A stretch of DNA of 52,339 nt from Planctomycetota bacterium. GTDB lineage: Bacteria > Planctomycetota > Planctomycetia > Planctomycetales > Planctomycetaceae. The position numbers and the translations under genes are program-made. The DNA lies in assembly GCA_018242565.1 (NCBI GenBank), contig JAFEBR010000529.1:1-52339 (forward strand), written 5' to 3'. Shown in pieces: positions 667 to 10,900 of this stretch; the first letter of the stretch is position 1, and each line of letters begins with the position of its first letter. The notes beneath the pieces are model-generated. The model was given only the letters and a program-made list of their open reading frames with translations, made no database searches and was not told the DNA's origin.

Positions 667-1008
667 GGGCGAGCCCCTCCAGTGCAGATGCGAATTCCCT
701 ACAAAACGGAAGGCGAAAAAACCTGTCCGACAGAGCGCACGAATTCAGGGTTTTTCCGAAGCCGCGGGCCTTTTCGCGAAAGCGGACCGACCGGCGGTGC
801 GAAAGAACGCCGACAGACTGCTTGACTTTCCAGGAGTTTTGAGAAAGGATCGGAATATCAATTGTTTCCGATGTGTCCGGATGCGGAATCAATTTCCGGG
901 ACAGAACTTGAATAGAGAATCAATCAATCGAACGGGTTCTGCTCGGCTGAAAGTGACAGGCGGCGCGTTCGGTCATCCATTCGTGTGTTGAGCCTCTTTT
1001 CGATCGAA
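667..1008. other. Divergent intergenic region without a recognisable gene
   Basis: This 342-base gap separates the start of the surface protein (-) from the sigma factor (+). It is more AT-rich than the flanking genes, especially around 840-930, so it probably holds both promoters. I found no convincing -35/-10 pair, palindrome or small gene. The open frames crossing it on the plus strand are antisense continuations over the surface-protein gene. Confidence 0.6.
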
Positions 1009-1593
1009 ATGCCCACTAGCTCGCAAATTCTCGAATCTGCTCGTCCCAATGACGTGCCCGACCTGGAGCGGTTCCGCAGTTATCTGCGGTTGTTGGCGCG
1101 CCTGGACCTCGATCCCCGGCTGTTGGGAAAGCTGGATTTGTCGGGGGTGATTCAGGAGACGCTGTTTGAAGCCCATCGCGCACTTCCGGACTTTCGCGGT
1201 CAGGGGGATGACGCGCTGCTGCTCTGGTTGCGGCAGATTCTCGTGCGCAATCTGATTGATGAAATCCGCCGGTTACGCCGGGTCAAATCGGATGTGATTC
1301 GCGAAGAATGGCTTGACGATCTGTCGTCGGTGGCAGAAACGCGGCTGGCAGCGGCACATTCTTCTCCTCGCGCCCGTGCGATTCGAAATGAAGATCTGTT
1401 ACGCCTGGCCCGAGCTCTCGGTGAGCTTCCCGATGACCAGCAGACCGCCATTGTTCGGCACCATCTGCAGGGAGTTTCACTGGCGGATGTGGCGGTGGAA
1501 ATGTCCCGGACGAAGCCCGCGGTGGCTGGCCTGTTGCACCGCGGGATGTCTCGATTGCGCGATCTGTTGGGTGAAGATTCAGCCCGATTGTGA
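1009..1593 (+). CDS. ECF-type RNA polymerase sigma factor (planctomycete kinase-linked group)
   Basis: The 194-residue protein has sigma-70 region 2 at about 30-90, including VIQETLFEAHR and a DALLLWLRQILVRNL stretch, the usual core-binding and -10 recognition helices. Region 4 lies at about 130-190: LPDDQQTAIVRHHLQG, then a helix-turn-helix (SLADVAVEMSRTKPAVAGLLHRG). No anti-sigma gene adjoins it. Instead a Ser/Thr kinase with WD40 repeats follows 200 bases downstream, an arrangement common in Planctomycetes where kinase and sigma factor are thought to be linked by phosphorylation. ATG at 1009 is chosen because the family N-terminus begins about there; a GTG at 985 is an in-frame alternative. 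Neither start has a clear ribosome site. Target promoters cannot be told from sequence. Confidence 0.9.
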   Translation: MPTSSQILESARPNDVPDLERFRSYLRLLARLDLDPRLLGKLDLSGVIQETLFEAHRALPDFRGQGDDALLLWLRQILVRNLIDEIRRLRRVKSDVIREEWLDDLSSVAETRLAAAHSSPRARAIRNEDLLRLARALGELPDDQQTAIVRHHLQGVSLADVAVEMSRTKPAVAGLLHRGMSRLRDLLGEDSARL

Positions 1594-1793: not shown

Positions 1794-4700
1794 ATGGGCA
1801 TCAGGAATCCGGGTGAAATGGCAGAGTCGATGTCAGAGATTGATGATCGCGAAACGCGGTTCCATGCCGTGCTGGCCGAATACCTGGAGGCCGCTGAATC
1901 TGGGACGCCGGCGCAAGATGCCACCTGGTTGAATCGTTTCCCCGACCTGGCCGAAGATCTCGAGCAGTTTTTCAGTGCCGTTCAGTCCGTAGAGGAATTC
2001 ACCGCCCCCTTTCGGAAGAAGACTGCGAAACGCGCCGCGGTTCTCGCGGGCCCACGTCGGATCGGCGATTATGAACTCCTGGAGGAAATCGGTCGCGGCG
2101 GCATGGGCGTTGTCTATCGGGCGCGGCAGTTGAGCCTGAAACGAGTCGTGGCTGTCAAAATGATCCGGGCGGCCTGGCTGGCAACCTCGGCTGATGCCGA
2201 GCGGTTTCGGGGCGAAGCCGAACTGGCCGCACGGCTCGATCACCCGGGCATTGTCCCGATCTACGAAGTGGGTGAAGTCGGGGGATGCCCCTATTTCAGT
2301 ATGAAGTTGATGGCCGGGGGGAACCTGGCGCAGCGCATTGGCGAGTTTCCAGACGACCCGCGGCGCGCTGTGGAACTGGTCATCAGTGTGGCCGGAGCCG
2401 TGGAACACGCTCATCAGCACGGCATCCTGCACCGCGACCTCAAGCCTTCGAATATTCTGCTCGATTCGGAGGGGCGGGCCCTGGTGGCCGACTTCGGCCT
2501 CGCGAAATGGCTCGAATCCGACCAGTCGCAGACCCAGACGGGGCTGCTGCTGGGGACTCCCATGTATATGGCTCCTGAGTTTGTGCACGCCCAACGGCAG
2601 GCGCAAACACTGCTGGCCACGACGGCCTGCGACGTCTATGGATTGGGGACGATTTTATATACTCTGCTCGCCGGTCGTGCTCCCTTTTTCGGACTGGCCC
2701 CGCTGGCCACCCTGCAGGCCGTCAGTGAGCTGGATCCCGAACCGCCGTCACGTCGGAATCCACGCGTCGATCGCGATCTGGAAACCATTTGCCTGAAATG
2801 CCTCGAGAAGAATCCCCATCGTCGCTATCGCTCGGCGGCCGACCTTGCCGACGAACTCCAGCGCTGGCAACGGGGCGATGTCATCCTGGCGCGTCCCGTG
2901 GGGACGTGTGAACGGCTCTACCGCTGGTGCCGGAAGAACCCGGTTCTGGCCGGCATGTCGCTGACGGCCGGGTTGCTGCTGGTGGGCCTGATCGTCGGCC
3001 TGGCGACCGGATACTGGATGGTCAGCGCCGCCCGTAATGAGGCGGATGCCCATCGCCGCGACGCGCAGCGCATCGCCGACAGTCTGCGCCAACAACTGTA
3101 TGCCAGTGAAATGATTCTCGGGTTTCGGCACGCCGAGCGGGGTGAGTTGGAAGAGCTTCGCGGTCTGGTTGAACATTATCGCCATGAAACCGATCTGCAG
3201 GGGTTTGAATGGCACTGGCTGGATGCCCAGGCGCGCCGGCGGCCCCTGGTGCTTACGTGTGTCGGGCATGAAGGCAAAGTGTATGCCGCCACGTGGTCGG
3301 CCGATGGAAGCCAGTTTGCCACCTGCAGTGAAGACCGCACGATTCGATTCTGGGATGGCACGACGGGCGCCCCGCGAGAGATCTGGCGTCCCCGTCCCGA
3401 AACGGCGTGGGAGCAGGTGCCTGGTCATCTGCACAAAGACGATGAGTTTGCCGTACGATTTTCGCCGGCGGGTCGGTCGCTGGCTTCCATCGGAGAAGAC
3501 GGCACGGTGCGTCTATGGGACCTCGCACTGCAGACCTGGCAGGCCTTGACCCCCGGGCACAGCCGTGAAGCCGTCTCGGTGGAGTTTTCACCCGATGGAC
3601 GCTGGCTGGTCACGGCTGGCTATGACGGACGGGTCCTGGTGTGGGATCTTGAACGCAGTGCCCCCTTGCCCGCTTTCACCGAGCATCAGACGGGCGTGCA
3701 CTATGCCAGTTTCTCGCCGGACGGAACACGGGTGGCCTCGGCGGACCATAACGGCAGGGTCCTGATCTGGGATCGTGAGCAACGCACGCTGGAACACACG
3801 ATTCAAGGTGGCGAGCACGTCTTCAGCGTGGCGTTTGCTCCCGATGGATCGCTGCTGGCGACCGGCGCCAACGGCGGTCAGGTACAACTCTGGAATCCTC
3901 ACACAGGCCAGCGCATCCGCAGTCTCGAACCGTTCACCGGAGATGTCCGGTCAGTCTGCTTTTCGCCCGATGGTTCCAGCCTGGCCGCCTCGAGTACCGA
4001 CGGGACCGTACGCATCTGGTCCGTGGCGGATGGAAACTCGCAGCATTACTTCAAGGCGCATTCCGGGCCAGTTTGGAGCGTGCGTTTTTCTGCCGATGGC
4101 GGTCGCTTATTAACCGCCAGCAGCGACAGAACAGCCCGCCTCTGGAAACTCCCGGCGCCGTTGCCTGCCAACCACTGGGTTGGGGGGCCGGCTAGTCCCG
4201 CCCGTCGCGTTCGCGTCTCGCCCGACGGCGACCGGTTTCTCGTGGTGACCGTTGATGAACGACTCCATCTGGGGTCTTTCAGTTCTCGGAATCCGCTGAC
4301 GACCCTGTCCGTTCGGACTTCGGACTGGACGGCGACACCGGTTTTTTCCCCGGACGGCAGGGAACTTGCGCTCGTGCAATCGGAACACCAGTTGCTCCGC
4401 TGGCGTCTGGAGGACGAACGCCCCCTGCCTCTCATTCGTCTCGATCAACCCGGGACCGGGGACGAGACTCCGTCGCCAAATCGTTTCCGCCAGTTTACTT
4501 ATACGGCGGATGGTCGATTCTGGATTCTGCGCCCCGACGGCGGGCTGCGGATCTATGACCGACAGCAGCAACGTGACGTGCGGTTGCCCGTGCGCAATCT
4601 TGAATGGCCAGTACTCCTGATGGCACTCCCGGGGGAAAACAAACTGTTGATCAGTGATGAATCGCACGAGCAGTTTCGGATCTGGAATACCCAAACTGAG

Positions 4701-5111
4701 CAATTCGAGTCGAATATGGCGTACCCGTACGTTCCCCAGTTTGTCACAGTTTCGGCCGATGGGAAATTTCTGGCGCTGGCATCCGGACAGGAGATTCACC
4801 TGCTGGAAATTGCCACGGCTAAATTACGGACCGATTTCATTCGTCACAATCTCGATGTGGGCTGGCTGGAATTCTCTCCCGACCGAAAAACGCTGGCGAG
4901 TGCCGGGAAGGATGGAACAGTCAGGCTGTGGCATGTGGCCACGGGGCAGGAACTGGCGGTTCTGGAAGATCGCCGAGTCCCCCTGTTCTCGGTCGCGTTT
5001 TCACCCGATGGGCGACGCTTGCTGGTCGCCGGTGAACCCGACCCAGACACCGGCAGCACGCTGACGGTTTACGAGATTCCTGCCTCCCCGGCGCCTCACA
5101 CATCGCATTAA
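1794..5111 (+). CDS. Membrane-anchored Ser/Thr protein kinase with WD40 beta-propeller
   Basis: A 1105-residue Hanks-type kinase. Residues 1-90 are a short helical region of a kind common before planctomycete kinases. The kinase domain is about 93-360: glycine loop IGRGGMGVVY (about 99-108), catalytic Lys122, HRDLKPSN at 213-220, DFG at 233-235 and GTPMYMAPE near 254-262. All catalytic residues are present, so it should be active. One transmembrane helix (about 386-410) separates it from a C-terminal region (about 490-1095) with many WD40 repeats of the FSPDG...LW type, probably folding into one or two propellers. With the kinase inside the cell, the propeller would lie across the membrane as sensor or scaffold; this is inference. 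It sits just downstream of the ECF sigma factor, probably its partner. Starts at 1818 and 1830 are also possible. Confidence 0.93.
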   Translation: MGIRNPGEMAESMSEIDDRETRFHAVLAEYLEAAESGTPAQDATWLNRFPDLAEDLEQFFSAVQSVEEFTAPFRKKTAKRAAVLAGPRRIGDYELLEEIGRGGMGVVYRARQLSLKRVVAVKMIRAAWLATSADAERFRGEAELAARLDHPGIVPIYEVGEVGGCPYFSMKLMAGGNLAQRIGEFPDDPRRAVELVISVAGAVEHAHQHGILHRDLKPSNILLDSEGRALVADFGLAKWLESDQSQTQTGLLLGTPMYMAPEFVHAQRQAQTLLATTACDVYGLGTILYTLLAGRAPFFGLAPLATLQAVSELDPEPPSRRNPRVDRDLETICLKCLEKNPHRRYRSAADLADELQRWQRGDVILARPVGTCERLYRWCRKNPVLAGMSLTAGLLLVGLIVGLATGYWMVSAARNEADAHRRDAQRIADSLRQQLYASEMILGFRHAERGELEELRGLVEHYRHETDLQGFEWHWLDAQARRRPLVLTCVGHEGKVYAATWSADGSQFATCSEDRTIRFWDGTTGAPREIWRPRPETAWEQVPGHLHKDDEFAVRFSPAGRSLASIGEDGTVRLWDLALQTWQALTPGHSREAVSVEFSPDGRWLVTAGYDGRVLVWDLERSAPLPAFTEHQTGVHYASFSPDGTRVASADHNGRVLIWDREQRTLEHTIQGGEHVFSVAFAPDGSLLATGANGGQVQLWNPHTGQRIRSLEPFTGDVRSVCFSPDGSSLAASSTDGTVRIWSVADGNSQHYFKAHSGPVWSVRFSADGGRLLTASSDRTARLWKLPAPLPANHWVGGPASPARRVRVSPDGDRFLVVTVDERLHLGSFSSRNPLTTLSVRTSDWTATPVFSPDGRELALVQSEHQLLRWRLEDERPLPLIRLDQPGTGDETPSPNRFRQFTYTADGRFWILRPDGGLRIYDRQQQRDVRLPVRNLEWPVLLMALPGENKLLISDESHEQFRIWNTQTEQFESNMAYPYVPQFVTVSADGKFLALASGQEIHLLEIATAKLRTDFIRHNLDVGWLEFSPDRKTLASAGKDGTVRLWHVATGQELAVLEDRRVPLFSVAFSPDGRRLLVAGEPDPDTGSTLTVYEIPASPAPHTSH

Positions 5112-5163: not shown

Positions 5164-8100
5164 TCAATCGTCAGTCACCTGTTTTCGGAACTCGGCCCGG
5201 GCCTGACGGAAGATCGCTTCCACCTGCTGCCGGTCGGCGGCGCTGGCGTACCGGTTACGGGCCACGACGACCCGCAACAGTTGGTCGATCCAGTCGCAGA
5301 AAAACTCGGCATCGACTCGGCTCGTGAGGCGTTTCCCAGCCACGGTGACATAGATCGGGCTTGTATGGGCCCAGGCGGGACCGTCGAACAGTGTCGGGTG
5401 ATCGGGACCGCGGACTCGCAGTGCGATCCAACTGCTGCGCTCAATCGGTACCTCGACTTCGAACTGACGGTGATAAGGCCCCGTGGATTCGTCGTCGGGA
5501 ACTTCGTCATGCGCAACGACTTTGCCGCTCACGAGCAGTTCGATGTGTCGGAATGGCACGAGGCTTTCAACGGAAATGCTCGCACGCACGGTACCGGGAG
5601 CCGGCAGCGCGATCGTCTCTCCGGAGCCCTGACCTTGCACGGTGAGTCCCGGAATGGGGCCATTCGTCACCAGCGTGCGACCGTTCCGCAGACCTTCCAG
5701 CCAGTTGGACAGGGTCAGGGGACCTGTCGTTTTCACATAGACTCGACTGCCCCCCAGCGGATCGGTCGAGCGATCGAGCAAGGCATCGGTTCCGACGCAC
5801 GCCGACAATCGGATGCCACAATTGAGCAACTTGTACCAGAGCCCGGCGGACTGCTCTTCATCGCTGTTGTACGACATGAGGTCCATGGCCTGCACCACCC
5901 CCAGAATGGCATCGATGGGCAGTTCGCGTGCCGCGCCATTCGGCTTCTTCAAGTCGTCTTCGAAGGGAAATGGCTGACCGGTGAATAATGGGTGTCCATA
6001 GGTCACCACGCCCCCCTGTCGCACCGCCTCGGCCGCCATGCTATGATTCGCTGGAAAATCGAGGTGATTGGGGGTGTTGTCAAAGCCGGTGTATTGCGGC
6101 TCGACGAGTTTTCGAATTCCGAAGAATTGCATATGGCCATAGATCATGCTGCGCATTTCTTCGCCAAACACGACGATGTGCCTGTCGGTCGTCACCGGTG
6201 CGGGCTGGCCGGTAATCAGGTTGACGTCGCGCAGGTCATCGCCGACGTTGTTCGAGACACACAGGTTCGTGAAATTCAAACCCTCGGCACGGGCCGCGAC
6301 CAGGGCATCGGCCGTGGTGACCTCAATCGGGCCGCCGGTGTGCAGGTGGACGTGAGAATCTCCCGAGTACCAGCCTCGGGCCGCCATGTCGATCCACGGT
6401 TGCAGGTGCACGGTGATCTGCGCCGATTCGGTACCGCGGGAATTCACCGTCACCTTCCGGGGAATGGTTTCCAGTCCGCCCGACACGCTCAAGTGCGCAT
6501 TGCCTGGTGGCAACTTCACTTCACATGAGCCGTCGGCATAAAAATAACTCTCCCCCCGGCTGGTTTTGCGAACGGCAGCGCCCGCCGGCGCGAGGGGCTG
6601 GCGGTCAGGGCCGACAAGACTCAGGCGGGCCGCGGCCGGTACACCGTTCCGCAGAATGCGGATCTGCGCCGTGGTGGGCGGATCGACCGGAAACTCCGTC
6701 CCGTCGAGGTGCAGGCGATACACCGTCCCTTCGTAACCGACCAGCAGGAGTTCGCCATCGTGGTCGAGTCCGAACGAGGCAATGCGTTGTGGCGACTGCC
6801 CGATTTGGCGCACCTTCAGTAACTGTCGGTCGGCCTGGGTGAGCGCCCAGATTCGTTTGGATTCGAAATCGCCGAAGATGTAGGCACCGTAAAACGACGA
6901 TTCGCGCTTCGCGCGGTAGACATAGCCACCCGTGACAGAGACGCCGTCACGTCGGCGGTAGGCAAAAATCGGCGGGACGTAGCGTTCACCGGCGCGACGA
7001 TACCGATCAGAAAACCTGTGGAAGCCTTCGTAGACATTCCAGCCCTGGTTTTCACCGGCCCGGCAGATCAGGACCTTGTCGAACAGGTTCTGTCCGACGT
7101 CGCCAATCCACAGGTCGCTGGTGAGAGGATCGAAACTGAACCGCCACGGCATGCGCACCCCCGACGCCCAGATCTCGCGACGCGTGGGGGGCAGGGCGTG
7201 GCGGTAGGGATTGGTCTCCGGGATCGCGTACGGCAGATCGTCGGTCTGGTGGTCAACGTCGATTCTCAGAATCTTCCCGGCCAGCTGGCTCATGTCCTGG
7301 CTGTGCCCTTCCGGATCCTCCTGAGGCCCGGCATCGCCGGCGCCAATGTAGAGGTATCCATCAGGTCCAAATGCCAGCATGCCACCCCAGTGGATATCAG
7401 TGTTCTGGTGAATCTGCAGCAGTCGCCTGGATGGGAGGCCGGCATCTTTTCGCAGGTCGGCCGTTGCCTGCCGTTCGACAATCACCGGGGAAAAGAAGCT
7501 CCCCTGATTGCGGACATGATAGTTCACATAATATTTGCGGTTCTTCTGGAATTCGGGATGAAAGGCCAGGCAGACGACCCCTTCGAATTCGCCGGTCGTG
7601 GCTTCGGCGGAAAAGTCGGCGAACAGTTCCTTACGAACGTCGGTGCCGTCCGCATCGATCCGCCAGATCTGGCGGGTTTTCTGTTCGACGACCAGATGCG
7701 ATTGGGGATGGCCGGGCAAAGCGATCACCCAGACGGGAAAGTCAAAGCGGTTTTTTTCTGAGTGGAGTGGCACCAGGCGAATGGGCTGTGCCAAAGCGGG
7801 GATCTCGCTCGGCAGACCGGGATAAGGGGTGTCGCGATCCGACTGCTTCAGCGAGCCGAGATAGGCAATCAGGTCGGCGAATTGATCGGGGGGCACCTGT
7901 TTGTGAATGCCGGCCGGCATCAGGGATTCTGCCACCCGCTTTTCCTGCTCAATCTGGGCCAGGGGAATCTGCTGCGGCTTGCCCTCGGCGTCGTAGAACT
8001 GCAGGCTCTCGGCCGTCCGCTGAATCAAGACCCCGGCATGAACTTTGCCATCGTGCGTCGTGACCACCACGGTTCCGAAATCGGGGTGGACCGTGGCGCT

Positions 8101-8391
8101 GGGTTCGAGCACGGCTTGAATCAGTTGGTCGCGCGAGAGTTTGTCGCCAATGTAAGTCAGTTCCGGGCCCGCCTTCCGGGCTTCGCCCGCGAATGGGTGG
8201 CATTTCTGGCAACCCGCCGTCTGCGATTCGAACACGCGTTTACCCCGCGCGGCATCGCCGCCTTTCAGGGCCGCCTGACGATGCGCTGCCAGTTGCTGCG
8301 GGTCGACAGGCTGTGCCGATAGGCCACGGGGGGCCCCGACGATGACGTATGAAACGGCAAAAACGACAACAGCGATCCAGCGGCGCGACAT
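5164..8391 (-). CDS. Secreted fusion: cytochrome c, glucose/sorbosone dehydrogenase-like propeller, PHP-like (CehA/McbA-type) metallohydrolase
   Basis: A 1075-residue exported protein with three parts. A signal peptide (about 1-26) is followed by a haem c domain with CQKCH at 61-65. Residues about 200-565 form a six-bladed propeller resembling soluble glucose/sorbosone dehydrogenases (HWGGMLAFGPDGYLYIGAGD, GENQGWNVYEG). After a linker, residues about 670-1000 carry GDSHVHLH (His680, 682, 684), EEMRS, GHPLF and a GTDA motif, resembling the PHP-like CehA/McbA metallohydrolases. The cytochrome probably takes electrons from a PQQ-type oxidation in the propeller; the hydrolase may act on the same substrate. 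This is inference. ATG at 8391 has AGGA upstream; a TTG at 8409 is an alternative. It converges on the kinase gene with a 52-base gap. Confidence 0.85.
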   Translation of the reverse strand: MSRRWIAVVVFAVSYVIVGAPRGLSAQPVDPQQLAAHRQAALKGGDAARGKRVFESQTAGCQKCHPFAGEARKAGPELTYIGDKLSRDQLIQAVLEPSATVHPDFGTVVVTTHDGKVHAGVLIQRTAESLQFYDAEGKPQQIPLAQIEQEKRVAESLMPAGIHKQVPPDQFADLIAYLGSLKQSDRDTPYPGLPSEIPALAQPIRLVPLHSEKNRFDFPVWVIALPGHPQSHLVVEQKTRQIWRIDADGTDVRKELFADFSAEATTGEFEGVVCLAFHPEFQKNRKYYVNYHVRNQGSFFSPVIVERQATADLRKDAGLPSRRLLQIHQNTDIHWGGMLAFGPDGYLYIGAGDAGPQEDPEGHSQDMSQLAGKILRIDVDHQTDDLPYAIPETNPYRHALPPTRREIWASGVRMPWRFSFDPLTSDLWIGDVGQNLFDKVLICRAGENQGWNVYEGFHRFSDRYRRAGERYVPPIFAYRRRDGVSVTGGYVYRAKRESSFYGAYIFGDFESKRIWALTQADRQLLKVRQIGQSPQRIASFGLDHDGELLLVGYEGTVYRLHLDGTEFPVDPPTTAQIRILRNGVPAAARLSLVGPDRQPLAPAGAAVRKTSRGESYFYADGSCEVKLPPGNAHLSVSGGLETIPRKVTVNSRGTESAQITVHLQPWIDMAARGWYSGDSHVHLHTGGPIEVTTADALVAARAEGLNFTNLCVSNNVGDDLRDVNLITGQPAPVTTDRHIVVFGEEMRSMIYGHMQFFGIRKLVEPQYTGFDNTPNHLDFPANHSMAAEAVRQGGVVTYGHPLFTGQPFPFEDDLKKPNGAARELPIDAILGVVQAMDLMSYNSDEEQSAGLWYKLLNCGIRLSACVGTDALLDRSTDPLGGSRVYVKTTGPLTLSNWLEGLRNGRTLVTNGPIPGLTVQGQGSGETIALPAPGTVRASISVESLVPFRHIELLVSGKVVAHDEVPDDESTGPYHRQFEVEVPIERSSWIALRVRGPDHPTLFDGPAWAHTSPIYVTVAGKRLTSRVDAEFFCDWIDQLLRVVVARNRYASAADRQQVEAIFRQARAEFRKQVTDD

Positions 8392-8715: not shown

Positions 8716-9108
8716 ATGTCTGCTGTTGAACCGGCCACTTCTGTATTGATCAGTCGGGATCTGTTTTTTACGAGCAAGGTGACGGGCACGGCCCAGGCCT
8801 TGGGAATCTCGTTGCGTGTGGTCGGATCGGTCGCTCAAGCGTTGGAGTTGGTGGCAGAGCGACCGTGCCCGTGCGTGTTGGTCGATCTCGCCGATCCGGG
8901 GCTGGATGTGACGCAACTTGTGCAGCAACTTCCCAGTGCGCCCGGCCCGCGAGTTGTGGCCTTTGGTTCGCACGTGGCCACGGCTCGACTCGAAGAAGCG
9001 CGCTCCGCGGGATGTACCGAGGTCCTGCCGCGCAGTCGATTTTCTGCAGAGTTGCCCGAGTTGTTGAAAAAGTACGCCGGAGGATCGTCGCATGCCGCGC
9101 CGACTTAA
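8716..9108 (+). CDS. Response-regulator receiver-like protein
   Basis: A 130-residue single-domain protein with receiver (CheY-like) folding signs: an N-terminal strand (SVLISRDLFFTSKV), then VLVDLADPGLD, which holds Asp residues near 60 at the expected phospho-acceptor strand, then VVAFGSH and AGCTEVLPRSRF near the usual fourth and fifth strands. The acidic pair normally found after the first strand is replaced by SRD, and the conserved Lys after the fifth strand is not obvious. Phosphorylation is therefore doubtful; it may be a pseudo-receiver. There is no output domain. The last 17 bases overlap the start of the cyanophycinase-like gene, so the two are probably co-translated. ATG at 8716 is preferred to a GTG at 8698. 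Confidence 0.7.
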   Translation: MSAVEPATSVLISRDLFFTSKVTGTAQALGISLRVVGSVAQALELVAERPCPCVLVDLADPGLDVTQLVQQLPSAPGPRVVAFGSHVATARLEEARSAGCTEVLPRSRFSAELPELLKKYAGGSSHAAPT

Positions 9109-10900
9109 GAACCAGATCGTGCTGGTACTGTGGATCGTCCTTGAACTGTTTCTGGGAGCAGGGTCGGACTTCGCCCGGGGAGATGAAGGGGGTTCCGGGC
9201 GGCTGTTAATCATCGGCGGGGGGACGCGTCGGTCCAGCGTCGAGATTTACGAGCGCCTGATCGAAGGGGCCGGGGGACGGGAGCGGGCGCAGATTGGGAT
9301 TCTACCGACGGCCAGTCGTTCGCTGACCGGTTCACAGAAAATGGTCGATACGCTGTTGCGGTTCGGGTTGCAACCGAACCAGGTGGAGATTCTCGACCTG
9401 ACACCGTTCAACGCCAAAGAGCGCGCCTCCGATCCGCAACTGGTCGAACGTGTCCGCCGTTGTACGGGCATCTTCATCGCCGGGGGCGATCAGCGGCGCG
9501 TCACGGCGGCCCTGATCGGACCAGACGGCACCGACCGACCGGTCCTGCAGGCGATCCGTGACGTGTTTCGGCGCGGCGGGATCATCGCCGGTTCCAGTGC
9601 CGGGGCCGCCGTTCAGAGCGAACTGATGCTCGCCGTCTCTGGTTTGCCCGCCGACCTGACCGATGAAGGCTTCGACGCACTCGATTTTGGATTGTCAGAG
9701 CACGCGGCTCGGCGCGGTCTGCATGTCTCGCCCGGGTTGGGATTTCTCCAGAGCGGCATCATCGACCAGCATTTCAATCAATATCGCGGACGACTCGGCC
9801 GATTAGCCCGGGCGGCCATTGAACGGCAGTCGCGCCTGGCCTTCGGGGTGGACGAAAATACGGCTCTTGATGTCGGCCCGCAGGGTGAATTTGAAGTGGT
9901 CGGCACCGGATCTGTGGTGATTCTGAATACGGTACAGGCCAAAGCCAGCGATGGTCCGCTGGGGTGCCGGCTGTCGCAGGTCATTGTCTCGGCTCTGCAA
10001 CAGGGAGACCGTTTCAACCCACAGACGGGCGTCGCCACGATTCATCCCGGTAAGCGAGAGGTGGTTGCAGGCAAAGAAGACCTTAATGGCAATTACTTGA
10101 TCGCCGATATGGCGGGAGAAGGGGCCATCAACCACGCGCTCTTTACCGGCCTGGCGGAAAACACCAGTCGCACGCAAGTGGGGGTCATGCTCAAACATGA
10201 TGGGACGTTTGCGCACGGGTATCGATTCACATTCAGCAAGACCGCCGAGACCCGAGGGTACGAAGGCTATGTCCGCGATGAGTTCAGTAATGCGATTTTG
10301 AACGTGAGGCTGGATGTCGAACCCGTGGTGCTTGGCTTGCAGGCATCGGCGACCGCGGTGCCGCGCGACGTCTCTGGGGAAAAATCCGCGGCGGAACTGC
10401 AGGCGGTCTGGTTTCGTGGTCTGTTGGCCACCGATGCCTCCGGCCACTTGCGTCCCGAGGCCGCCATCACGCGGATCGAACTGGCAAGGGCATTGACCCG
10501 GCTGATTCATCTCGAATTGCCCAGAAAGGAAACTCAGCGGCCTGTCGATATGGACGAAGCACTGCCGGAAATGGAAGATGTATTGAAGGTGCTGGGGGCC
10601 GGACTGATGTCACTCGATGGACAGGGCCGATTTGCCGGCGAGGCGATCGTCAGTCGGCGTGACGCGGCAGGAATTCTGGTGCGGGCGTGCGAACGCTATC
10701 GTGGTGAAAAGCTGCCGGGAGCCGTTCAGGAACTTGAGGATTCTCAGGAAGAGAGTCCCGAATTGCAGGAAGCCATCTATGCCGCTGTCGAAGCCGGATT
10801 GCTGCCGGTGAATGGTCGGCGCTTCGATTCCGAGCGACCGGTCACCCGCAAGGAAGTGGCTGTAGCCCTCTGCCGGATCATCGAATTCTCGTGGGACTGA
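9092..10900 (+). CDS. Secreted cyanophycinase-like peptidase with SLH-like C-terminus
   Basis: A 602-residue protein. Residues 1-30 are a signal peptide. Residues about 37-300 match the cyanophycinase/peptidase S51 fold: RLLIIGGG near 37, FIAGGDQRR near 128, nucleophile motif GSSAG at 167-171 (Ser169) and GIIDQHFNQYRGRLGRL near 220. Cyanophycinases cut the arginine-aspartate polymer cyanophycin; related enzymes act on other beta-linked peptides. No cyanophycin synthetase is in this window, so the substrate is open. The last 150 residues contain two stretches resembling S-layer homology repeats (RPEAAITRIELARALTRLI, RPVTRKEVAVALCRII), suggesting envelope attachment. A GGAGG site precedes the ATG, which lies inside the end of the receiver-like gene. 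Confidence 0.83.
   Translation: MPRRLKNQIVLVLWIVLELFLGAGSDFARGDEGGSGRLLIIGGGTRRSSVEIYERLIEGAGGRERAQIGILPTASRSLTGSQKMVDTLLRFGLQPNQVEILDLTPFNAKERASDPQLVERVRRCTGIFIAGGDQRRVTAALIGPDGTDRPVLQAIRDVFRRGGIIAGSSAGAAVQSELMLAVSGLPADLTDEGFDALDFGLSEHAARRGLHVSPGLGFLQSGIIDQHFNQYRGRLGRLARAAIERQSRLAFGVDENTALDVGPQGEFEVVGTGSVVILNTVQAKASDGPLGCRLSQVIVSALQQGDRFNPQTGVATIHPGKREVVAGKEDLNGNYLIADMAGEGAINHALFTGLAENTSRTQVGVMLKHDGTFAHGYRFTFSKTAETRGYEGYVRDEFSNAILNVRLDVEPVVLGLQASATAVPRDVSGEKSAAELQAVWFRGLLATDASGHLRPEAAITRIELARALTRLIHLELPRKETQRPVDMDEALPEMEDVLKVLGAGLMSLDGQGRFAGEAIVSRRDAAGILVRACERYRGEKLPGAVQELEDSQEESPELQEAIYAAVEAGLLPVNGRRFDSERPVTRKEVAVALCRIIEFSWD

Follow-up and report, generated by a model that had tools for sequence, protein, structure and literature searches.

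Planctomycetes and verrucomicrobia export numerous proteins with haem domains whose function is unknown (cited sections of PMC5615132). For the diheme cytochrome Kustd1711, the cited sections of PMC11791136 give M292 as a distal haem ligand, and tentatively assign its His/Met haems, with calcium, to +355 and +385 mV. The fungal enzyme CcPDH joins a haem domain, a PQQ propeller and a binding domain in a single chain and, as far as the cited sections of PMC4133262 and PMC6881789 describe it, binds PQQ through a partly different set of residues; the latter source also covers, in part, the roles of the side chains that contact PQQ and the dependence of E. coli on external PQQ.

The window that we analysed, a stretch of 52,339 nucleotides from a Planctomycetota bacterium, encodes a single chain in which a haem-propeller unit precedes a CehA/McbA family metallohydrolase.

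A three-part chain encoded by one gene

An initial annotation had described positions 5164-8391 as a three-part secreted fusion of haem, propeller and metallohydrolase. These coordinates are correct, the gene lies on the minus strand of the window, and it reads as a 1075-aa frame without an internal stop, in which a likely signal peptide is followed by a TIGR02603 c-haem domain, a six-bladed GSDH propeller and a CehA/McbA (PHP-fold) metallohydrolase. All three parts were borne out, since TIGR02603, PF07995 and NF038032 match the same chain above their cut-offs.

5164..8391, minus strand: whole gene, 1075 aa, with ATG at 8391 and stop at 5164-5166; it recurs in five other genomes
8314..8391, minus strand: probable Sec signal peptide, residues 1-26, with a hydropathy peak near residue 8, a helix at residues 4-18 in the model and a cleavage site placed by eye

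Searching for the same domain order, we found the full chain in six of the 397 sampled genomes of the class, the window's own included, spread over two families; the other five fusions are 63-69% identical to it over the whole chain and 62-70% per half. Because the frame is unbroken and the full architecture stands in five other genomes, this three-part fusion is neither a chance product nor the result of a chimaeric contig: it is real, uncommon and common to several species. No further full fusion was detected among 392 genomes of the phylum, nor among 288 from the phylum to which a Verrucomicrobiales relative belongs; with scoring limited to the two best candidates of each genome, the absence counts of all three surveys are soft. 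Among plasmids, 181 records matched by tblastn, none with a single place covering 80% of the query, and a literature search that covered few subscription journals found no publication describing a haem-propeller-hydrolase architecture.

The protein is probably secreted, as judged from its N-terminal hydrophobic stretch: the 19-residue windows starting at residues 5-8 are the only ones of the chain above the hydropathy threshold. The architecture claimed earlier thus stands, while its word "secreted" covers the periplasm as a destination just as well as the outside of the cell. The whole-chain model reached a pTM of 0.67, versus 0.93 for the hydrolase half alone.

The haem domain keeps its ligands

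7852..8259, minus strand: TIGR02603 c-haem domain, residues 45-180; a beta insertion occupies the place of the Kustd1711 "nose" (E 5.2e-29; aligned to 7zs0 176-316)
8197..8211, minus strand: CQKCH haem-c motif, residues 61-65, the CxxCH of the initial annotation; C61, C64 and H65 are present in 25/25 aligned proteins, including that of the window
7918..7920, minus strand: Met158, probable distal haem ligand, kept in 25/25 aligned proteins

The N-terminal domain scores 100.9 bits against the NCBIfam cut-off of 68.15 for TIGR02603 and carries the CxxCH motif, and its Met158 aligns with Met292 of Kustd1711 in the 7zs0 alignment. The haem ligands are never lost among the 25 aligned haem-propeller proteins. 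The genome of the window contains 29 further places that match the haem-domain part of the fusion protein.

The propeller has an altered PQQ site

6694..7791, minus strand: six-bladed GSDH/HHIP-type beta-propeller, residues about 201-566 (Pfam PF07995; VIA Z 38.5 to 7cgz, 37.8 to 2g8s and 37.4 to HHIP 7pgm)
7390..7392, minus strand: His334, counterpart of the catalytic His of PQQ sugar dehydrogenases, present in 25/25 aligned proteins
7150..7155, minus strand: Arg413-Met414, Arg-Asn in E. coli YliI (aligned to YliI GIRNPQG)

The propeller belongs to the GSDH family, both by its PF07995 match at residues 229-551 (E 2.3e-30; 106.5 bits against a gathering cut-off of 25) and by the six-bladed fold of its model, which gave Z 37.0-38.5 to the bacterial aldose/glucose dehydrogenases 7cgz, 7cdy, 2g8s, 2ism and 3a9g. 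It scores 42.7 bits with TIGR03606, below the cut-off of 434.55, and it departs from the YliI/sGDH type, defined by a catalytic His with Arg, Asn, Lys, Arg and Arg contacts: on alignment, three of the six PQQ-site side chains of E. coli YliI are absent, while His334, Arg413 and Arg536 remain. The initial annotation had proposed that a propeller lacking its key catalytic residues would be left with a structural role only; what alignment gave is a mixed site, with the catalytic His and first Arg kept and others lost.

This pattern extends to the 25 aligned haem-propeller proteins. The first PQQ-binding Arg is kept in all of them, 24 have Met, Glu or Gln in place of the Asn, the Lys is Glu, Asn or Thr in 25 and the second C-terminal Arg is lost in 25; among the six fused proteins, five have Arg at the R406-like position and one has Lys. 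The Met or Glu stands in the place of the Asn that touches the reactive quinone oxygen in PQQ enzymes. In 13 GSDH homologues without a TIGR02603 haem domain, the Asn is kept in 12, and the Lys and the second Arg are gone in 13/13. A change from Asn to Met or Glu would mark the GSDH branch that has an N-terminal TIGR02603 haem domain. The broader statement that all cytochrome-linked GSDH propellers have lost this Asn was rejected: in six of the 13 comparison proteins the propeller is followed by two CxxCH motifs, and five of these six have the Asn, the exception (L004) having Gln.

Concerning the cofactor, PqqC was found in 0/9 genomes with a working positive control, and the PqqE profile gave only below-cut-off matches in 9/9 genomes and likewise in 14/14 controls, so that PqqE carries little weight. 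Since E. coli relies on PQQ from outside, the missing PqqC is mild evidence against PQQ use. Dehydrogenase activity of the propeller is doubtful because three of the six PQQ-site side chains are missing; since His334, Arg413 and Arg536 remain, a working site with scavenged PQQ or an altered binding mode is possible.

These observations bear on two explanations. The first is a bifunctional quinohaem-hydrolase, in which the propeller, with PQQ or a related quinone, would oxidise an alcohol or sugar moiety that the hydrolase either sets free or requires, and the electrons would exit through the built-in haem. The invariant His and first Arg, the mostly conserved R406-like Arg, a fold equally similar to HHIP and to PQQ sugar dehydrogenases, conservation of the fusion in six genomes and the existence of a comparable chain in CcPDH all speak for it. 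Set against this are the Asn, Lys and second Arg replacements, of which the latter two are also seen in the homologues that lack this haem domain and mostly keep the Asn, as well as the mild PqqC result and the occurrence of the halves apart in other genomes, and we consider this explanation unlikely. In the second, to which we give slightly more credit while still holding it rather improbable, the propeller would have no enzymatic role and, like human HHIP, would be a platform for binding or docking that holds a substrate or partner beside the hydrolase, and the haem would serve electron transfer or be a structural leftover from the cytochrome repertoire of planctomycetes. It would account for HHIP being the top match by sequence and by Foldseek, for the eroded PQQ contacts, for the propellers of another kind on other CehA relatives (see below) and for the many haem-domain matches of the genome; however, haem ligands kept in every aligned protein argue for redox use, and VIA puts bacterial glucose dehydrogenases level with HHIP.

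The hydrolase half has a complete set of predicted metal ligands

6391..6675, minus strand: transthyretin/CnaB-like beta-sandwich, residues about 573-667 (C-half model; Z 9.3, rmsd 1.9, 76 aligned to 5aq0, a carboxypeptidase D domain)
5347..6375, minus strand: CehA/McbA family metallohydrolase, residues 673-1015 (NF038032 E 3.3e-57; PHP fold)
6340..6363, minus strand: GDSHVHLH, residues 677-684, with probable metal ligands D678, H680 and H682, in 10/10 close proteins including the window's and in Sphingobium CehA
5785..6159, minus strand: further probable metal ligands E745, H753, H800 and D869, in 10/10 close proteins and aligned in Sphingobium CehA

The NF038032 score (NCBIfam, CehA/McbA) is 194.3 bits against a cut-off of 80. 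A sequence search with this half gave no PDB chain up to an E of 1, and fold comparison alone gave matches: the C-half model adopts a PHP fold, with Z 16.1, rmsd 3.4 and 232 aligned residues to 3e38, and Z 14.5, rmsd 3.1 and 198 aligned to 2anu. The predicted PHP-type metal ligand set is complete in all ten close proteins. The nearest further relatives of the hydrolase carry a PD40/TolB-type propeller (6/6 scanned planctomycete proteins of 785-865 aa, plus one from Gemmatirosa); a related 739-aa hydrolase (L100) has no propeller by NCBIfam, so that a propeller is not universal.

The two halves also occur apart

In one genome (G198), the two halves are adjacent genes, in the same order as in the fusion and 31 bp apart. 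Another (G757) has both on different contigs, its haem-propeller gene being broken by a TAG. In G007, G247, G346, G363, G366, G381 and G402, a haem-propeller gene stands without any close counterpart of the hydrolase; a 125-aa frame in G007 matches the hydrolase at 42%, under the limit set for a close half. G186 and G193 show the converse, a hydrolase half but no close haem-propeller gene. The G193 protein keeps the signal peptide and first haem-domain residues of the fused protein and then jumps to the hydrolase (score 132, whereas 500 shuffles reached at most 49); this one draft genome, with a listed contamination of 9%, appears to have deleted the redox half and retained the hydrolase. Taken together, these occurrences suggest that the redox half is dispensable for the hydrolase. 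The coupled oxidation and hydrolysis of one substrate that had been proposed for this protein is unsupported, given the halves standing alone in relatives, the apparent deletion in G193 and the three lost PQQ-site residues. Conversely, fusion in six genomes and adjacency in G198 argue for a functional link between the halves.

Trees were built from ORFs covering a query half nearly whole (25 haem-propeller and 32 hydrolase rows, contained duplicates removed), leaving out partial ORFs, among them L069 and L104, and the interrupted G757 gene. In the hydrolase tree used for AU tests (17 of the 32 rows, with a distant outgroup and several forks unresolved), stand-alone forms nest within fused ones, the fused proteins as one clade giving p 0.0023 and the fused plus G193 p 0.040. 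This nesting would tentatively speak for a fused ancestor that lost one half, more than for a recent joining, and the tree does not favour the G198 pair as ancestor of the fusion. In the haem-propeller tree, the fused rows do form a single branch (95/96).

A third explanation, in which neighbouring genes of an operon were joined neutrally or locally and nothing follows for the mechanism, would fit the G198 pair and the apparent loss in G193; retention across two families with all ligands intact and the nested position of the stand-alone hydrolases make it very unlikely.

Some of the loci are flanked by DUF1501, PSCyt/PSD and sulfatase genes. The remaining neighbourhood recurrences are pairs of loci, some from sister genomes, such as the kinase-WD40 gene of the window and a gene beside the G247 haem-propeller gene (L086).

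Proposed function

The explanation that we prefer, and to which we give about even chances, is that of an exported CehA/McbA-type metal-dependent hydrolase whose N-terminal accessory module combines a haem-c domain with a GSDH-type propeller. Outside the cytoplasm, the hydrolase would cleave a small compound resembling an ester, carbamate or amide; the propeller would hold either substrate or cofactor; and the haem, by analogy with Kustd1711, would be of high potential and feed electrons into the respiratory chain. Rather than forming one concerted catalyst, the halves would most likely take successive steps of one degradation pathway or be co-located for it. Retention of the fusion across two families runs counter to an accessory role, as it would be odd if the redox half were useless to the hydrolase. 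A bolder proposal, which we regard as distinctly improbable, is that a single-chain enzyme splits an organic compound by hydrolysis and uses its own propeller, with an undescribed cofactor or PQQ-binding mode, to oxidise the product, the electrons leaving through a built-in high-potential haem.

The fusion, the adjacent pair and the apparent deletion tie the haem-propeller unit to a hydrolase family that includes carbamate-pesticide hydrolases, so that the substrate of the hydrolase, if found, could be the first substrate lead for haem-propeller proteins. The altered PQQ site also poses a clear yes/no question on PQQ use by the haem-linked propeller branch.

Comparison with known systems

The human HHIP propeller, the best PDB match to ours by sequence and Foldseek, belongs to an animal signalling protein that, to our knowledge, is not an enzyme. 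The PD40/TolB-propeller CehA proteins (L026, L027, L071, L072, L074, L113 and Gemmatirosa L127) also place a propeller before the CehA part, with 34-37% identity for the six planctomycete ones; their propeller is of an unrelated family and no haem domain was found in them. PVC-type haem-GSDH proteins (TIGR02603 plus PF07995), such as Verrucomicrobiales L022, share the first 570 residues (48-61% identity in close ones) and have identical haem and propeller residues, and stop where the hydrolase of the fusion begins; the same literature search found no characterised member. The C-terminal domain of Kustd1711 (7zs0) is 35% identical in the Foldseek alignment, with CxxCH, the equivalent distal Met and an alignment that runs through the beta insertion, whereas Kustd1711 itself comes from an anammox organism and has neither propeller nor hydrolase. 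The Coprinopsis cinerea pyranose dehydrogenase (AA8-AA12-CBM1) is likewise a secreted chain of haem, six-bladed propeller and third domain; in the cited sections of PMC4133262 and PMC6881789 it is, unlike our protein, a proven PQQ enzyme with haem b instead of c, and its third domain binds cellulose without hydrolysis. Finally, the annotated CehA (carbaryl hydrolase) of Sphingobium sp. CFD-1, whose first ~235 residues have no significant match in the fusion protein, is 26% identical to it over 548 aligned columns, with the metal-site residues aligned.

The three-part fusion is a recurrent chain

The fusion gene runs on the minus strand from window position 8391 down to 5164 and encodes 1,075 residues with zero internal stops.

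Domains of the fusion protein
Residues 45-180: TIGR02603 c-haem domain, above the curated cut-off (NCBIfam)
Residues 229-551: GSDH propeller, above the cut-off (Pfam)
Residues 673-1015: CehA/McbA metallohydrolase, above the cut-off (NCBIfam)

An AlphaFold2 model of the whole chain (36 sequences) had a mean pLDDT of 87 and a pTM of 0.67, and the hydrolase half modelled alone (25 sequences) reached a pLDDT of 92 and a pTM of 0.93. Structure comparisons of these models matched the propeller fold to sugar dehydrogenases and to HHIP (Z 33-38.5), and resolved the hydrolase half into a transthyretin-like sandwich, a PHP barrel (Z 16.1, rmsd 3.4 and 232 aligned against 3e38) and an Ig-like sandwich close to the C-terminus.

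The full chain was found in 6/397 genomes examined in the class, its own genome counted and the other five at 63-69% identity; one of these five, G214, appears to be the genome holding locus L021 of the GTDB scan. When the best two candidates per genome were scored, no further full fusion was found among 392 genomes of the phylum (a sample overlapping that of the class) or among 288 genomes of the phylum of a Verrucomicrobiales relative. Because the same chain recurs in this way, the fusion is not an accident, and the three-part architecture described in the initial annotation is borne out by one open frame, three domains above cut-offs and its presence in other genomes.

The two halves also occur paired or apart

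Ten genomes were found to carry a close relative of the hydrolase half, which is fused in six of them. In G198, a separate hydrolase gene lies 31 bp downstream of a haem-propeller gene; in G757, the two are on different contigs; and genome searches of G186 and G193 returned no haem-propeller match at E values up to 1e-60. In the draft assembly of G757, an in-frame TAG breaks the haem-propeller gene (L119, contig C225), through pseudogenization or sequencing error. A haem-propeller gene at 53-60% identity is found without a close hydrolase half in seven genomes (G007, G247, G346, G363, G366, G381 and G402), among which G247 has paralogues at 33-38% and G007 a 125-aa frame matching the hydrolase at 42%.

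In the haem-propeller tree, rows from fused proteins formed one branch (95/96). The G198 haem-propeller gene falls outside it and is therefore not the lost half of the neighbouring hydrolase gene. The stand-alone trio of the hydrolase tree was a single branch (100/99 in one tree, 99/96 in the outgroup-rooted tree). With an outgroup of six PD40-type proteins and L100, a further hydrolase relative, this branch nested among the fused rows. An AU test counted against the fused rows as one clade (p 0.0023, or 0.040 with G193 added). The hydrolase tree would be consistent with a single fusion and subsequent redox-half losses, but its outgroup is distant, several of its forks are unresolved, and the G198 haem-propeller gene sits apart from the fused branch. 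The G193 protein opens like a fused relative from G050, sharing its signal peptide and initial residues, and then jumps to the hydrolase. The best reading is that the redox half was deleted in frame, although this draft genome has a listed contamination of 9%.

Among the next hydrolase relatives, a PD40/TolB propeller was found in 6/6 planctomycete proteins scanned at 785-865 aa, plus Gemmatirosa, the 397-genome class sample holding about ten more of similar size; NCBIfam models found no propeller in L100. This propeller type joined to a CehA/McbA-type hydrolase is a recurrent fusion in planctomycetes and Gemmatirosa (L026, L027, L071, L072, L074, L113 and L127). Four haem-propeller proteins (L062, L065, L066 and L067) have an extra C-terminal tail of about 160-170 residues, with zero Pfam matches in the three scanned. 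Because hydrolase relatives carry PD40/TolB propellers and haem-propeller proteins other C-terminal tails, each half behaves as an exchangeable module.

Gene neighbourhoods

He et al. report that sulfatase genes are often close to planctomycete-type cytochrome genes and suggest a role in carbohydrate metabolism (PMC5615132). Two of the genes studied here have a sulfatase gene immediately upstream.

Sulfatase genes, each on the same strand as the downstream gene
L097, 3613-5043: upstream of the fused gene of G132
L094, 3670-5145: upstream of the haem-propeller-only gene of G346

PSCyt/PSD or DUF1501 genes lie nearby in G186, G198, G007 and G327. In G198 (L085, 4122-9015, contig C85), the haem-propeller, CehA and DUF1501 genes follow one another on the same strand, and DUF1552 and PSCyt/PSD genes lie upstream of them.

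Other genes in the window
985-1593: sigma-70-like factor
1794-5111, plus strand: WD40-repeat protein kinase, its gene convergent with that of the fusion protein
9092-10900, plus strand: cyanophycinase-like Peptidase S51 joined in one protein to an S-layer homology region

A gene similar to the kinase-WD40 gene adjoins the haem-propeller gene of G247 (L086).

The propeller keeps part of the PQQ site

Residue counts across aligned proteins all include the fusion protein itself. In an alignment to the E. coli PQQ sugar dehydrogenase YliI, neither the catalytic His nor the first Arg is lost in any of the 25 haem-propeller proteins. Where YliI has an Asn after this Arg (residue 414 of the fusion protein, window 7150-7152), 13 of them have Met, 10 Glu, one Gln and one Asn, so that Met, Glu or Gln stands there in 24/25 GSDH propellers with an N-terminal TIGR02603 haem domain. 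The YliI Lys position holds Glu, Asn or Thr in 25/25, and two places further on there is a Lys, Arg or His, and of the C-terminal Arg pair, one is Arg or Lys in 19/25 and the other is gone throughout. Thus, of the catalytic residues on which the initial annotation had made more than a structural role for the propeller depend, the His and first Arg stand in 25/25, but the Lys and one C-terminal Arg are replaced in 25/25 and the Asn in 24/25. Since HHIP also keeps this His (PMC4133262), the His alone is weak evidence. In a fungal PQQ enzyme, an Asn next to the conserved Arg contacts the quinone O-4 (PMC6881789), and this Asn is probably equivalent to that of YliI. Thirteen GSDH homologues without the TIGR02603 domain have the Asn in 12/13 and likewise lack the Lys and second Arg. 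Two CxxCH motifs lie C-terminal to the propeller in 6/13 of these homologues; L003, L004, L077, L078, L082 and L083 are GSDH proteins with this order, the reverse of that in the fusion protein.

PqqC was found in 0/9 genomes by a search that detects it on S. meliloti pSymB, and PqqE was above the cut-off in 0/9, with the controls likewise all below it. Because E. coli depends on external PQQ (PMC6881789), the missing synthesis genes are only mild evidence against PQQ use.

Haem and hydrolase sites

Concerted oxidation and hydrolysis of one substrate outside the cell, as proposed in the initial annotation, is possible, yet unsupported. We give most weight to the protein being an exported hydrolase in which the haem-propeller module is accessory and possibly linked to it by pathway. 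C61, C64, H65 and Met158 are conserved in 25/25 haem-propeller proteins. When the haem domain is aligned with the C-terminal domain of the anammox diheme cytochrome c Kustd1711, Met158 falls on Met292, a distal haem ligand in that protein, whose calcium-bound potentials of +355 and +385 mV are tentatively assigned (PMC11791136). Seven putative metal-site residues of the hydrolase are kept in 10/10 close proteins, and several are missing from three distant rows (L034, L039 and L042) among 32; the same seven align with those of the annotated carbaryl hydrolase CehA.
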